DNA from: a virus
Length of the DNA: 23,510 bases
Reading direction: 5' to 3' (one strand)
Virus record (IMG/VR): IMGVR_UViG_3300032316_000614
Span: 1-23,510 of that record
Part shown: piece after piece, positions 2,348-23,510 of the stretch
Position numbering within the stretch: the first letter of the stretch is position 1
How the letters are laid out: every line of letters begins with the position of its first letter
Translations under genes and position numbers: made by a program
The notes under the pieces: generated by a model
Databases searched by the model: none
Told to the model about the DNA's origin: nothing
The model's input: only the letters and a program-made list of their open reading frames with translations

Positions 2348-3079
2348 ATGGTTTACTCGCTTCACATCGGAATTAATAAGTACAGCGTAAGCGAATACGG
2401 CGAAGGTGCGAACTTGACGCAATGTGTGCGCGATGCGTATGTGCTTGCTGAAATTGCGCGCACGAAATTTAACTCAAGCAATGCGCGCGTACTTGCAGAT
2501 GAATTTTGCACGCTCGCGAACATCAAGCACGAACTTACGAAATACGCGCACCTGATGAACGCAAACGATGTACTGCTTTGCACGCACAGCGGACACGGCA
2601 CGTATCACGATTATCAGGGAACGCGCGCAACGGGTGTATGCGCGTATGATGGTGTCTTTTGGGATTTTCAGTTGTTTCCATTTTGGAAACAGTTTAGAGC
2701 AGGCACGCGCATTGTCCGGCTGATTGACACCTGTTATTCTGAATCCAATTTCAGGGCTGCACAGCCATTAGGCCGAACACGTTTTATTCAGATGCCCAAA
2801 GCGCCTGTAATAAAGCCGACTACCAACAAGATGGCCGAAGTTCGATGCAGTATCATATCTGTAAGCAGCAGCACGGTAAAGCAACCATCATACGAGAACG
2901 ACAAGGGCGGCGTGTTTACATTGGCGCTGGAGGAACTATTCAAGCAAGACGCTATACCAACCTACAACGAACTGCATAAGTTCACCACAGGGCAAATAAA
3001 CGCGTGGAAATACCCACAGACACCACGACTGGAGGCGCACAATGCCGGACAGTATAAGGCAAAGAAGTTTTTAACCTGA
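2348..3079 (+). CDS. Caspase-like cysteine protease (peptidase C14 / metacaspase type)
   Basis: This 243-residue protein is a nearly bare caspase domain. Seen: a first beta strand LHIGINKY (residues 5-12), a CVRDA helix start (26-30) typical of meta- and orthocaspases, the catalytic His in HSGHG (H83), and the catalytic Cys in LIDTCYSES (C129). D127 sits two residues before the Cys, the position that in metacaspases helps select Arg/Lys in the substrate. A p10-like segment follows (ISVSSSTVKQ and GGVFTLALEEL, about residues 175-200). Family knowledge: such enzymes cleave after basic or acidic residues and often mediate regulated proteolysis or cell death. There is no signal peptide, so it should act in the cytoplasm. 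It lies between tail and lysis genes, which suggests virion-protein maturation or a lysis/host-killing role; neither is shown. Confidence 0.85.
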   Translation: MVYSLHIGINKYSVSEYGEGANLTQCVRDAYVLAEIARTKFNSSNARVLADEFCTLANIKHELTKYAHLMNANDVLLCTHSGHGTYHDYQGTRATGVCAYDGVFWDFQLFPFWKQFRAGTRIVRLIDTCYSESNFRAAQPLGRTRFIQMPKAPVIKPTTNKMAEVRCSIISVSSSTVKQPSYENDKGGVFTLALEELFKQDAIPTYNELHKFTTGQINAWKYPQTPRLEAHNAGQYKAKKFLT

Positions 3080-8095: not shown

Positions 8096-8135
8096 GGGTA
8101 TTTTTTAACATGAAACAACGCAAAACACATTGAAC

Positions 8136-9452
8136 ATGAAAAAATATATTGACGTCAATGTTTATGACGCAGCCAATGAAAGAATTGATTTCATATTTAA
8201 GAACTTTGAGAAAATATACATATCTTTTTCAGGCGGAAAGGATAGCGGAGTAATGCTTAATCTTGTAATTGATTACATGAGAAAAAATAGCATCAACAGC
8301 AAGGTAGGTATTATGATACTTGATAATGAGGCTAATTATGAGCATTCATTGAATTTTATGCACGACATAATTAGAAAAAATCTTGACATACTTGATGTTT
8401 ATTGGTGTTGTATGCCAATAACACTGCCATGTACGGTAAGTGCATACGCTACAGAATGGCAATGCTGGGGGGTAAAAGATGAAAAAAGATGGATAAGGCC
8501 AATGCCGACTGACTCATACATTGTAAACATCAATAACCATCCGTTTCCCTGGTTTATTGAGAATATGAGTTATGATGAATTTTGGGATAAATTCGGCGAA
8601 TGGTACAGCGAAGGAAGCAAAAAGACAGCCTGTCTTATCGGCATACGCGCAGATGAAAGCCTGAATAGATACCGGGCTATTTTGAACGAGGATAAGACCA
8701 TGTTTATGGGTAAAAGCTGGACAAAAAAGAAGACACACAATAATGACTTTGTTTACAATTGTTATCCAATATACGATTGGAAAACAAAGGATATTTGGGT
8801 GGCAAATGCTCGCATGGGATGGGACTATAACAAGTTGTATGATATATTCTACATGGCAGGGCTTACAATTGCACAAATGAGGGTTGCGTCACCATTTATG
8901 TCAGAGTCAAAATCTTCGCTTAATTTGTACCGTGTAATTGATCCTCACGTGTGGGTAACTTTGTGCGCACGCGTTCAAGGTGCAAATTTTATTGCTACTT
9001 ACGGAAAGCAAATAAATTACCACAGTTTTAAACTTCCAAATGGTCACACTTGGAAATCTTTTGTAAAGTTCCTTTTAAGCACTTTGCCAAAAGAGGTTTC
9101 AGAAAATTTTAAGGCTCGGTTTATTCAATCAATTCTATTCTGGGGAAGGGTAGGCCGAGGATTACCGGAAGAAGTAATTTCAGAACTTGACAAGCATGGA
9201 GTTCAATACACAATTAACGGCTTAACCCCTCACGGATCAGGAAATAAAAGAAGGGTTCGCATTCAATCAATGCCCGATCATCTTGATTCACTTTCGTTCC
9301 ACAATTCAGAGGTTGCAAGCTGGAAAAGATTTGCAATAACAATCTTGAAAAACGATCACACGTGCAAGTATATGGGGCTTGCACCTACAAAGGAGCAAGC
9401 TGCCAGGCAGCGCGAAATCATGGAAAAGTACAAAAACATTGAACAATTTTAA
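8136..9452 (+). CDS. ibrA: IbrA-like PAPS-reductase-family protein (DUF3440)
   Basis: The 438-residue protein has the PP-loop SFSGGKDSG near its N-terminus (residues 31-39), the ATP-pyrophosphate-binding motif of the adenine-nucleotide alpha hydrolase / PAPS-reductase superfamily. Further on are IGIRADESLNRYRA (about 170-183) and YPIYDWKTKDIW (about 209-220), both typical of the family. The C-terminal end, CKYMGLAPTKEQAARQREIM, matches what I know of DUF3440/IbrA proteins. Biochemical role is uncertain: family members activate substrates with ATP, and relatives take part in sulfur transfer, including DndC in DNA phosphorothioation. In E. coli, IbrA works with the ParB-domain protein IbrB in gene regulation. 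A cupin gene and an IbrB-like gene follow. An upstream TTG at 8130 is less likely than the ATG at 8136. The gene is AT-rich relative to its neighbours. Confidence 0.88.
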   Translation: MKKYIDVNVYDAANERIDFIFKNFEKIYISFSGGKDSGVMLNLVIDYMRKNSINSKVGIMILDNEANYEHSLNFMHDIIRKNLDILDVYWCCMPITLPCTVSAYATEWQCWGVKDEKRWIRPMPTDSYIVNINNHPFPWFIENMSYDEFWDKFGEWYSEGSKKTACLIGIRADESLNRYRAILNEDKTMFMGKSWTKKKTHNNDFVYNCYPIYDWKTKDIWVANARMGWDYNKLYDIFYMAGLTIAQMRVASPFMSESKSSLNLYRVIDPHVWVTLCARVQGANFIATYGKQINYHSFKLPNGHTWKSFVKFLLSTLPKEVSENFKARFIQSILFWGRVGRGLPEEVISELDKHGVQYTINGLTPHGSGNKRRVRIQSMPDHLDSLSFHNSEVASWKRFAITILKNDHTCKYMGLAPTKEQAARQREIMEKYKNIEQF

Positions 9453-9464
9453 ACACACAAAAAA

Positions 9465-9863
9465 ATGAAAGTTCGCACAATTAAAAGCATCACACACACG
9501 GAACGCCATGTAATTGGCGTAGGTTTTGAATCATTAAGAATTGTCCTGGCAAAGGATGATATTGGATTTTCCGTTCACAAAACAGTAATACCAAAAGGCC
9601 CTGCAAGGCATTGGCATTACAAACACCACAAAGAGGTGTGTTATTGCATTCAGGGGCGCGGAATACTTACAAACCTTGAAACCGGAGAAACATTTAAGAT
9701 TGTGCCTGATACGGCGTACATTCTTGACAACCACGACAATCACACGTTTCAGGCAATTACAGATGTTGTGTTGATTTCTGTTTTTAATCCACCCGTAACC
9801 GGACATGAACTTCATGATGAAGATGGCTCATATCTGCCTGCTAAAAAAATGCTAAACCTGTAA
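9465..9863 (+). CDS. ectC: Ectoine-synthase-like cupin (EctC family)
   Basis: The 132 residues align along nearly their whole length with L-ectoine synthase, a small iron-dependent cupin that cyclises N-gamma-acetyl-diaminobutyrate. Seen: FSVHKTVIPKG (35-45), HWHYKHHKEVCYCIQGRG (49-66), AYILDNHDNH (84-93) and the C-terminal signature FNPPVTGHELHDEDGSY (107-123). The residues expected to bind iron, E57, Y85 and H93, are all present, as are R25, T40, Y52, H55, F107, E115 and H117 that I recall as substrate-pocket residues; residue 21 is Phe where Trp is usual. No ectA or ectB is in the window, so this is a solitary copy. It sits 12 bases after the IbrA-like gene and 11 before the IbrB-like gene, so it probably works with them on another small substrate. 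Confidence 0.82.
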   Translation: MKVRTIKSITHTERHVIGVGFESLRIVLAKDDIGFSVHKTVIPKGPARHWHYKHHKEVCYCIQGRGILTNLETGETFKIVPDTAYILDNHDNHTFQAITDVVLISVFNPPVTGHELHDEDGSYLPAKKMLNL

Positions 9864-9874
9864 ATCAATCTGAC

Positions 9875-10561
9875 ATGAACGATAAAATAAAATTACTCGC
9901 TGATCAATTGGCCGCTGAAATAAACGGCATTGATAACGTTGATTCTAAAATTGACGTGCTGAATGAAGTGCGTAAGACATTGCACAATGTAAGCCCGCTA
10001 AAACACCATCCGGTTGATTGCGTGTTTTGGGAAAAGAGTTCAAATGTTGAGGCGAATGAATACAACCCGAATGCGGTTGCCCCTCCCGAAATGGCCCTTT
10101 TAAGGCAGTCAATCGTAGAGGATGGATACACTATGCCAATTGTTGCGTACAGGGGTGAAATAATCAAGATTGTTGACGGATTCCACAGGCGGCAAACAGA
10201 GCGCAATAATCCCGAGGTAAGCGCTTCTACATTTGGCCGTGTTCCATTGACGCAAATAAGAACTTCGCAAGAAGGTCAAGGAGAAAGGATGGCATCTACA
10301 ATCAGGCACAACAGAGCAAGGGGATCACACAATATTGAATTAATGTCAACCATTGTGGCGGAACTTGTTGAAATGGGAAAAGGTGACAGATGGATATGTC
10401 AGCATCTTGGAATGACAGCAGATGAGCTTTTGCGCATGAAGCAGATAACTGGGCTTGCTGCATTGTTTCAAAATGACAGCTTTTCAAAGTCATGGGAAGT
10501 TGAAGGCCATGATGATGGTTTAGATGTAATTGAATTTGAAAATTCAGGATTTGATGATTAA
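9875..10561 (+). CDS. ibrB: IbrB-like ParB/sulfiredoxin-domain protein
   Basis: The 228-residue protein carries a ParB-type N-terminal domain: NEYNPNAVAPPEMALLRQSI (about 61-80), GYTMPIVAY (84-92), VDGFHRRQ (100-107) and STIRHNRARG (141-150). DGFHRR corresponds to the nucleotide-binding GxxR-type box and RHNRARG to the second ParB motif. A helical part with a possible HTH follows (ICQHLGMTADELLRMKQITG, about 174-193). The ParB fold can bind or hydrolyse CTP/ATP. Partnering with IbrA/DUF3440 proteins is well known for this subfamily. The gene overlaps the next one by 8 bases. Its exact activity in phages is not known to me. Confidence 0.85.
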   Translation: MNDKIKLLADQLAAEINGIDNVDSKIDVLNEVRKTLHNVSPLKHHPVDCVFWEKSSNVEANEYNPNAVAPPEMALLRQSIVEDGYTMPIVAYRGEIIKIVDGFHRRQTERNNPEVSASTFGRVPLTQIRTSQEGQGERMASTIRHNRARGSHNIELMSTIVAELVEMGKGDRWICQHLGMTADELLRMKQITGLAALFQNDSFSKSWEVEGHDDGLDVIEFENSGFDD

Positions 10562-21392: not shown

Positions 21393-21396
21393 CGCT

Positions 21397-21609
21397 ATGG
21401 AAGATTTGATTAATCTCAACTTTTGCCATAGTGATGGATCTGGATCAGGATGCGGTTTTAGCTCAGGATCTGGCAACGGCTACGGATACGGCAATGGTAG
21501 TGGCAGCCGCGGAACCCACTACGGAAGTGGAACTGGATCAGGATTTGGATACAGCTACGGAAATGGCAGCGACAACGGCATTAGTAATTCTTTTGGTGAC
21601 GTAGAATAA
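21397..21609 (+). CDS. Gly-rich X-Gly repeat protein 1
   Basis: The 70-residue protein starts MEDLINLNF and then is mostly Ser/Gly, Tyr/Gly and Asn/Gly dipeptides; 21 of 70 residues are Gly and aromatic residues recur (FGYSYGNG, GYGYGNGSG). Codons for Gly are mixed, so the array is not a recent expansion. The N-terminus resembles those of the two following repeat proteins (M-[EQ]-[DS]-L-I). No signal peptide. Such [G/S]-Y-[G/S] composition resembles low-complexity proteins that phase-separate, which is inference. Function unknown. Confidence 0.7.
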   Translation: MEDLINLNFCHSDGSGSGCGFSSGSGNGYGYGNGSGSRGTHYGSGTGSGFGYSYGNGSDNGISNSFGDVE

Positions 21610-21618
21610 AAACAGGCA

Positions 21619-22140
21619 ATGCAAGACTTAATCAGACAAGGTTCAGGGCATGGCCATGGAAACCAAAATTGCTACGGAAACGGTTATGGAGATGGTATGT
21701 CTTCAGGCACTTACGAAATGATGAGTCACGGATCGGGAAGTGGTGAAAGTAACGGAATTCAAAACGCACGGTCAATTGGCTGGAGTGTTGAATTAATAGA
21801 GAAAAGAACAAAACAATTCACAACCAAACACACAAATAACATGGCAAGCATGATTAACAAAATTTGCATCATCCGCTCTTATGAAAGCGGTGTTCACTTA
21901 GGAGAAGTACTTGAAACACGCGACACAATTCACGGACTATCCGTAACACTCAAAGATAGCCGCCGCGTTCACTACTGGGAAGGCGCTGCTTCATTATCGC
22001 AAATGGCGCTTGATGGCATCAAAACCGGACGTATCGCAATGGTGCTGCCTGAAATTCAGGTAGAGAACGTCTGCGAAATCATACCGATGTCAGAAGCCGC
22101 AATTGATAACATGAAAAAGCAGCCGATATGGAGAGTTTGA
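21619..22140 (+). CDS. X-Gly repeat protein 2 fused to a small conserved domain
   Basis: The 173-residue frame begins MQDLIRQGSGHGHGNQN, with a Gly/Ser/Tyr-rich segment to about residue 47. From residue 75 comes a folded domain (INKICIIRSYESGVHLGEVLE, split around 78-98; RRVHYWEGAASLSQMALDG at about 114-132; then a VLPEIQVENVCEIIP strand). That domain resembles small phage proteins of the DUF6948 type, as I recall them. The ATG at 21841 gives a 99-residue protein preceded by an A/C-rich leader nearly identical to the one before 22333. So the domain may be its own gene, and the repeat part may be a separate small gene that lost its stop. It overlaps the next gene by 13 bases. Confidence 0.65.
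   Translation: MQDLIRQGSGHGHGNQNCYGNGYGDGMSSGTYEMMSHGSGSGESNGIQNARSIGWSVELIEKRTKQFTTKHTNNMASMINKICIIRSYESGVHLGEVLETRDTIHGLSVTLKDSRRVHYWEGAASLSQMALDGIKTGRIAMVLPEIQVENVCEIIPMSEAAIDNMKKQPIWRV
21815..21835 (+). repeat. A/C-rich leader element, copy 1
   Basis: Matches 22300-22320 at 20 of 21 positions (AATTCACAA, C or G, CAAACACACAA). Here it lies inside the open frame of the repeat protein 2 just before an ATG at 21841, which suggests a real translation start there. Confidence 0.55.
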
Positions 22141-22295
22141 TTAAGATTCGCTCCGGCTCCGGCTCCGGCTCCGGCTACGGCTCCGGATACGGCTCCGGCG
22201 ACGGCTCCGGATACGGCTCCGGCGACGGCTACGGCTACGGCTACGGCTCCGGCTCCGGCTACGGCTCCGGCTCCGGCTCCGGCTACGGCGAATAA
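22128..22295 (+). CDS. X-Gly repeat protein 3 (55 residues)
   Basis: ATG at 22128 opens a 55-residue frame: MESLIKIR, then 23 X-Gly dipeptides (Ser, Tyr or Asp before Gly), then Glu and stop. It overlaps the previous stop by 13 bases. Almost every Gly codon is GGC and the variable codons are TCC, TAC or GAC, so the array is uniform and probably young. The N-terminal MESLI matches MEDLI and MQDLI of the two preceding proteins. The other strand also has an open frame here, but with no sensible start or context. Function is unknown. Confidence 0.7.
   Translation: MESLIKIRSGSGSGSGYGSGYGSGDGSGYGSGDGYGYGYGSGSGYGSGSGSGYGE
22152..22289 (+). repeat. Hexanucleotide array (TCC/TAC/GAC + GGC or GGA)
   Basis: Twenty-three 6-base units encode the dipeptide array of repeat protein 3. 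A 24-base block is perfectly duplicated in tandem (22182-22205 and 22206-22229). Replication slippage or unequal recombination would easily change its length. Confidence 0.9.
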
Positions 22296-23494: not shown

Positions 23495-23510
23495 AGATCG
23501 GAAGAGCACA
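23495..23510 (+). other. Sequencing adapter remnant at the contig end
   Basis: The last 16 bases, AGATCGGAAGAGCACA, are the start of the standard Illumina TruSeq-type adapter. They are not biological, so the true genome sequence ends by about 23494 here. Confidence 0.93.

Follow-up and report, generated by a model that had tools for sequence, protein, structure and literature searches.

The window (the entire 23,510-nucleotide stretch of viral DNA that was analysed) contains three frames encoding X-Gly dipeptide repeats, termed XG1, XG2 and XG3, and a member of the Pfam family DUF6948 (Table 1). The first-pass annotation had described three tandem genes starting with MEDLI, MQDLI and MESLI, with mixed Gly codons in the first two and almost pure GGC in the third. 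All three frames were present, at 21397, 21619 and 22128, and the codon counts agreed with its description: XG1 had 12 GGA, 6 GGC and 3 GGT codons for Gly and used both AGY and TCN codons for Ser, the Gly codons of XG2 were also mixed, and XG3 had 21 GGC and 2 GGA codons among its 23 Gly codons. When the entire window was Markov-shuffled 200 times, no X-Gly window arose, indicating that these arrays are not due to chance, and the frames behaved as real coding sequence. XG2, however, is not free-standing but runs in frame into DUF6948, which had been overlooked.

The open reading frame containing XG2 (21619-22140) encodes 173 residues, of which only about the first 50 are X-Gly-like. Residues 81 to 163 matched DUF6948 with an E value of 4.2e-19 and a score of 68.9 bits against a curated cut-off of 27, and the PHROGs matches for this frame were only to families of unknown function. 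Pfam TrAA12 matches to the arrays were discarded as low-complexity hits below the cut-off. In two close phage contigs, L003 and L004, the gene order was lysozyme, X-Gly, DUF6948 and X-Gly, plus a further X-Gly gene in L003, and then the next gene; DUF6948 was a separate reading frame in both. As the DUF6948 leader (ATTCACAAC...) and start codon region are common to the window and to these contigs, where DUF6948 stands alone, the natural start of this gene in the window is most likely at position 21841. XG2 is most likely a decayed X-Gly copy which has lost its stop codon. An array also lies in frame and upstream of DUF6948 in another locus (L261), and by comparison with this arrangement XG2 and DUF6948 may constitute a functional fusion.

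Table 1. Coordinates of the X-Gly and DUF6948 features of the window
Feature	Position	Strand	Remarks
XG1, putative displaced X-Gly copy, MEDLI, 70 aa	21397..21609	+	directly after phage lysozyme gene
Ghost of DUF6948 C terminus in other frame of XG1	21395..21409	+	CTA TGG AAG ATT TGA = L-W-K-I-stop
XG2, probable degenerate X-Gly copy, MQDLI	21619..21840	+	own stop absent; in frame with DUF6948
Ghost of DUF6948 C terminus in XG2	21617..21631	+	Q-C-K-T-stop; stop retained, Trp gone
DUF6948 (PF22253), cassette core gene, predicted Sm/LSm fold	21841..22140	+	own conserved start MASMINKICIIR; Pfam, relatives, AlphaFold
XG3, X-Gly array protein, MESLI, 55 aa, putative ancestral position	22128..22295	+	overlaps DUF6948 stop
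13-nt overlap ATGGAGAGTTTGA	22128..22140	+	W-R-V-stop (DUF6948 frame); M-E-S-L-(I) (XG frame)

Origin of the X-Gly start motif

The overlap between DUF6948 and the X-Gly gene was exactly 13 nt in 105 of 129 measured loci. In each of these 105 overlaps, the X-Gly ATG lay over the Trp codon (TGG) of a DUF6948 C terminus ending in Trp-x-x-stop, such that ATG GNN NNN NT(A/G) was read across TGG-NNN-NNN-T(AA/AG/GA). At residue 2 of the X-Gly protein, all 105 had E, A, G, V or D, and at residue 4 all 105 had L, I, V or M. Conservation of the M-x-x-L-I start among relatives had been proposed as a check, and M-x-x-L/M-I starts were detected in L003 and L004. However, because the overlap with Trp-x-x-stop dictates residues 2 and 4, and hence the M-[GNN]-x-[LIV] start, this pattern is an imprint of the gene overlap, being the C terminus of DUF6948 read in another frame, and not an independent protein motif.

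Tandem copies which overlap no DUF6948 gene still exhibited a ghost of this C terminus (LWKI-stop in XG1 and QCKT-stop in XG2). A third copy in L003 contained KQPIWRV-stop, matching the end of the DUF6948 protein of the window, and other ghosts were WNV-stop in L004, WKE-stop in three tandem copies in L247 and WKI-stop in L068. We read the extra X-Gly copies as products of duplications that took in the end of DUF6948. The three frames of the window are related copies, as had been proposed, with XG3 apparently in the ancestral overlapping position and XG1 and XG2 apparently displaced.

Linkage of DUF6948 and X-Gly arrays

The association of the two genes was examined from both sides. A blind DNA pattern for Gly-Ser/Tyr dipeptides identified 120 stretches in viral contigs, from which 14 truncated stretches and 38 without a mixed array were set aside; the latter, mostly pure Ser-Gly repeats, were treated as a different kind of repeat. 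DUF6948 was present upstream and on the same strand in 56 of 59 mixed X-Gly loci, at a distance of 200 nt or less in 54 of them. In a 57th locus, L048, a DUF6948 gene with several in-frame TGA codons (L048:2590-3010) was located directly before the X-Gly frame. One of these codons sits at a Gly conserved in other DUF6948 proteins, and this phage is probably recoded, with TGA read as an amino acid.

From the other side, DUF6948 was the sole criterion for retrieving loci, of which 60 came from bacterial genomes and 80 were viral. An X-Gly frame lay directly downstream in 133 of the 135 loci scored, namely those with downstream DNA, or in at least 131 if L223 and L233, which are distant or doubtful, are not counted. 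The true exceptions were L042 and L088, with an array and no DUF6948, and L215, with DUF6948 and no array. In the 697 kb of these DUF6948-fetched loci, 120 arrays were linked to DUF6948 versus 4 elsewhere, all 4 within about 1 kb of the cassette. One phage (L022) encoded a single protein in which DUF6948 is followed by an X-Gly tail, the only C-terminal fusion found in a phage, which suggests a physical partnership of the two proteins.

Records with DUF6948 had titles from the Pseudomonadota, Acidobacteria, Bacillota, Bacteroidota, Planctomycetes, Verrucomicrobia, Cyanobacteria, Spirochaetes, Actinobacteria, Ignavibacteriae and candidate phyla, although most are metagenome-assembled and single host assignments may be wrong. 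Five deposited phage records, including a Chlorobiaceae phage and a Vibrio phage, exhibited the same pairing with the genes unannotated or hypothetical. Vibrio phage IKEMa6-1 and Chlorobiaceae phage CV-1-33 are examples of cultured phages with the pair. Among bacterial genomes DUF6948 was seldom encountered (2 of 395 in the Bacteroidota), in keeping with an accessory gene of phages. The tight linkage over many phyla and the mostly retained 13-nt overlap indicated that this gene pair must do something important. No paper in the library searched mentioned DUF6948, or such repeats in a phage, in agreement with the first-pass annotation, which knew of no such system; this two-gene phage cassette is apparently undescribed so far.

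Two other arrangements of X-Gly genes were observed. In L036 (1660-2970), about 0.7 kb downstream of DUF6948, five X-Gly genes lay in tandem; their ends were identical (MGLKAFLKF...EPNLTSAGATVVEE), but the interiors of their arrays differed. L042:1473-1985 (reverse-strand coordinates), from a phage record without any DUF6948, contained Tyr/Asn-Gly arrays (MKYPKGYGYGYG...) that are possibly a separate X-Gly family. Many contigs (L133, L200, L212, L213, L236 and others) ended within 50 to 200 nt, inside or just past an X-Gly array. These repeats probably break short-read assemblies, with the cassette under-counted.

Composition and turnover of the arrays

Ser, Tyr and Asp occupied 39%, 30% and 22% of X positions over the loci, respectively, and X codons were almost only TCY, TAY and GAY; Ala, Pro, Thr and Val were nearly absent, though one base away. 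Each of the three residues reached at least 5% in 93% of long arrays. Of 113 arrays of 12 or more dipeptides, 84 had a within-locus uniformity of at least 95% at the Gly third base and also at the X third base, with X mixing TC, TA and GA, and the mean entropy was 0.17 for the Gly third base and 0.17 for the X third base versus 1.71 bits for X. The third-base sets varied between loci and comprised GGC/NNC, GGC/NNT (in AT-rich genomes), GGT/NNC and GGG/NNC. Uniform third bases were found in most arrays occupying the position of XG3; the near-pure codons of XG3, previously taken as a sign of a young gene, agree with an array that is constantly remade rather than with gene youth.

Repeated five-letter words were more frequent in the arrays than in shuffles (380 versus 170), and identical neighbours (SS, YY and DD) were slightly under-represented. 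The DUF6948 DNA of the near-relative loci compared was 95 to 98% identical, yet their arrays were unlike, as in the pairs L160/L162 and L204/L205 (95 to 97%). Between L224 and L248, whose flanks are about 99% identical, the array differed by two GA-to-TC double changes. These patterns lead us to infer a rebuilding of the arrays from units that outpaces drift at silent sites, with selection at the protein level maintaining the Ser/Tyr/Asp mixture. The products are acidic, with a net charge of about -9.5 per 100 residues, and represent a Tyr/Ser/Gly-rich sequence of conserved composition and free order, as in condensate-forming low-complexity domains. Antisense and other frames were rejected as the conserved product, these being Val/Ala, Thr/Pro or Leu/Arg repeats that are altered when third bases change between loci.

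An expansion-like mode of evolution and the repeated blocks could also stem from a hexanucleotide repeat that is selfish or neutral and open only by coincidence. Such a repeat would, however, be expected to show equal synonymous and non-synonymous variability, in contrast to the 0.17 and 1.71 bits observed, and would not be expected to have its position, frame and composition fixed over many phyla, so that this explanation is scarcely credible. It is also improbable that the array is a regulatory element in which translation of Gly-rich sequence slows ribosomes, or mRNA structure tunes expression of DUF6948 or downstream genes, with the X-Gly product being incidental. The strictness of the 13-nt overlap and a repetitive mRNA with third bases fixed within a locus are consistent with regulation, but the X-Gly protein sequence survives third-base changes between loci, the four residues only one base away are nearly absent and some arrays are followed by a C-terminal domain that is conserved and folded.

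This domain, of about 150 aa, was detected mainly in Bacteroidota and Clostridia records (L151-L189, alignment A6) and has the pattern FAHGxTL...WHHxLTGSCxxGR...YGG. A confident AlphaFold model was obtained (pLDDT 91), for which there was no convincing match to a PDB structure (best E value of 0.4).

Targets of diversity-generating retroelements vary at codon positions 1 and 2 while position 3 is fixed. The X-Gly arrays similarly vary at positions 1 and 2 only, but are almost restricted to TC/TA/GA rather than covering the full NNY spectrum and also vary in length. They were not classed as targets of adenine-templated NNY variation because the X codons are almost only TCY, TAY and GAY.

Predicted fold of DUF6948

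Alignment A2 of DUF6948 was too diverse for back-translation, and alignment A3 and a closer set, A4, were used instead. An AlphaFold model based on 49 sequences had a pLDDT of 95.3 and a pTM of 0.85, and consisted of a five-stranded, strongly bent barrel of the Sm type. In comparisons with the PDB, all 50 listed matches from Foldseek and VIA were Sm/LSm proteins, with a best Foldseek E value of 3.9e-3. The best VIA-align matches had Z scores of 8.5 (rmsd of 2.0 over 66 residues) and 8.4 (rmsd of 1.8 over 64 residues), just over 8 and in a range where a shared arrangement alone is possible.

Sequence comparisons gave a different result. A DUF6948 profile search of the PDB produced no Sm match, and hhalign of DUF6948 against five archaeal Sm sequences (the first being checked against 1i4k) returned a probability of 1% and an E value of 0.05. 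The aligned register spanned the Sm1 region, and Sm1 and Sm2 sequence motifs were not detected in DUF6948 by profile comparison. As sequence methods give no homology support, DUF6948 is called Sm-like in predicted fold and is not filed as an Sm protein. The family is near neutral (median pI of 7.9; 6.3 for the window copy) and hence not obviously nucleic-acid binding.

Genomic neighbourhood

A scan of 118 neighbouring genes matched many families, few of them more than twice. The recurring neighbours of known function were RecE-like exonucleases, RecT/Sak4 annealing proteins, SbcC-like proteins, helicases and DNA methylases, as raw counts; the cassette of the window adjoins lysozyme. The first-pass annotation had suggested adhesive fibres. 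A structural or adhesive fibre or virion protein would accord with the silk-like alternation of Gly with other residues, but known-function neighbours were mostly replication/recombination genes and methylases rather than structural genes. Moreover, X-Gly frames start with few residues and no apparent signal peptide, and are coupled to a small protein with a predicted Sm fold, making such a role highly improbable.

A role in counter-defence or host takeover appears rather unlikely. DUF6948 would then bind a host protein involved in defence or regulation, and the X-Gly protein, being hypervariable, would act as a decoy or sponge escaping recognition, in a mobile accessory module. The presence of methylases among the neighbours, the patchy accessory presence (2 of 395 Bacteroidota genomes), the spread over phages of many phyla and the fast change of the arrays are all consistent with this possibility. 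However, the two genes are far more tightly linked than is usual for accessory genes, and a constant array composition argues for a material or compositional role and not for escape from sequence recognition.

Proposed function of the cassette

The best explanation, to which we assign a probability of about 0.4, is a translationally coupled pair of an Sm-like core and a low-complexity X-Gly partner forming a nucleic-acid scaffold or condensate. The first gene encodes a small protein of one domain, predicted to fold as an Sm/LSm-type beta barrel. The second gene, which encodes a low-complexity product alternating Gly with Ser, Tyr or Asp, starts within the last codons of the first, so that coupled translation probably yields both proteins together. 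The Sm-like protein would probably assemble on RNA or single-stranded DNA into a ring or oligomer, and the X-Gly protein, acidic and rich in Tyr, would be its disordered multivalent partner, comparable to the Gly-rich tails of some Hfq proteins. Phage nucleic acid and proteins could thus be gathered into a scaffold or condensate during replication or recombination. As hexanucleotide units are duplicated and exchanged, the array would be quickly remade, its order being free while selection holds the Ser/Tyr/Asp-Gly composition, and in the window the array gene would have been copied along with the tail end of DUF6948, yielding XG1 and XG2. The suggestion of condensates in the first-pass annotation is compatible with the composition of these proteins. 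A broader proposal, that tailed phages of many phyla encode an Sm-fold protein and a coupled, continuously regenerated (Ser/Tyr/Asp)-Gly polymer as a composition-selected condensate organising RNA or single-stranded DNA, is advanced only tentatively and with some doubt.

In FUS-type [G/S]Y[G/S] low-complexity domains and silk fibroin (GX)n, Gly alternates with Ser or Tyr and composition outweighs order. The phage arrays likewise alternate Gly with Ser and Tyr but differ in a regular period of two, about 20% Asp at X and almost no Ala or Gln, and in being phage encoded and paired with a protein of predicted Sm fold. A second comparison is with Hfq of A. baumannii, in which an Sm core carries disordered Gly-rich GGFGGQ repeats that modulate the core and whose number matters for Hfq fitness functions (PMC11617691). 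Both systems combine an Sm-type core, predicted in the case of DUF6948, with a long, disordered, repeat-built Gly-rich partner. In Hfq, however, the repeats are covalently attached to a bacterial RNA chaperone as its tail, whereas here they are mostly encoded by a separate overlapping phage gene and have a Ser/Tyr/Asp-Gly period of two. No covalent C-terminal repeats of the Hfq type occur in the window, where the arrays form a separate overlapping frame and an in-frame N-terminal stretch, and no sequence homology of DUF6948 to Hfq or Sm was detected.

The window protein belongs to Pfam DUF6948 (PF22253); this domain of unknown function gains a predicted fold and a partner, both apparently new. 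The arrays also offer a natural experiment in composition-level selection, in which order is free, composition is fixed and the DNA appears to be rebuilt faster than silent drift. If condensates form, the cassette would represent a phage-encoded organiser built from only two proteins, both very small, and would serve conveniently as a model and a tool.

Other features of the window

Elsewhere in the window, a PAPS-reductase/DUF3440 protein, an ectoine-synthase-like cupin (PF06339; E value of 3e-45) and a ParB-like frame lie in a row at 8130-10561. The third of these had no Pfam match; from reading of the sequence we take it to be ParB-like and the row to resemble an IbrA/IbrB pair with a cupin between. 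A frame at 2348-3079, which had no Pfam match at 0.001, exhibited the caspase-like features SGHG and DTCYS and is a possible phage-encoded caspase-like protease. The sequence at 23495-23510 (AGATCGGAAGAGCACA) is the start of the Illumina TruSeq adapter, and these last 16 bases of the window are probably adapter and not phage.
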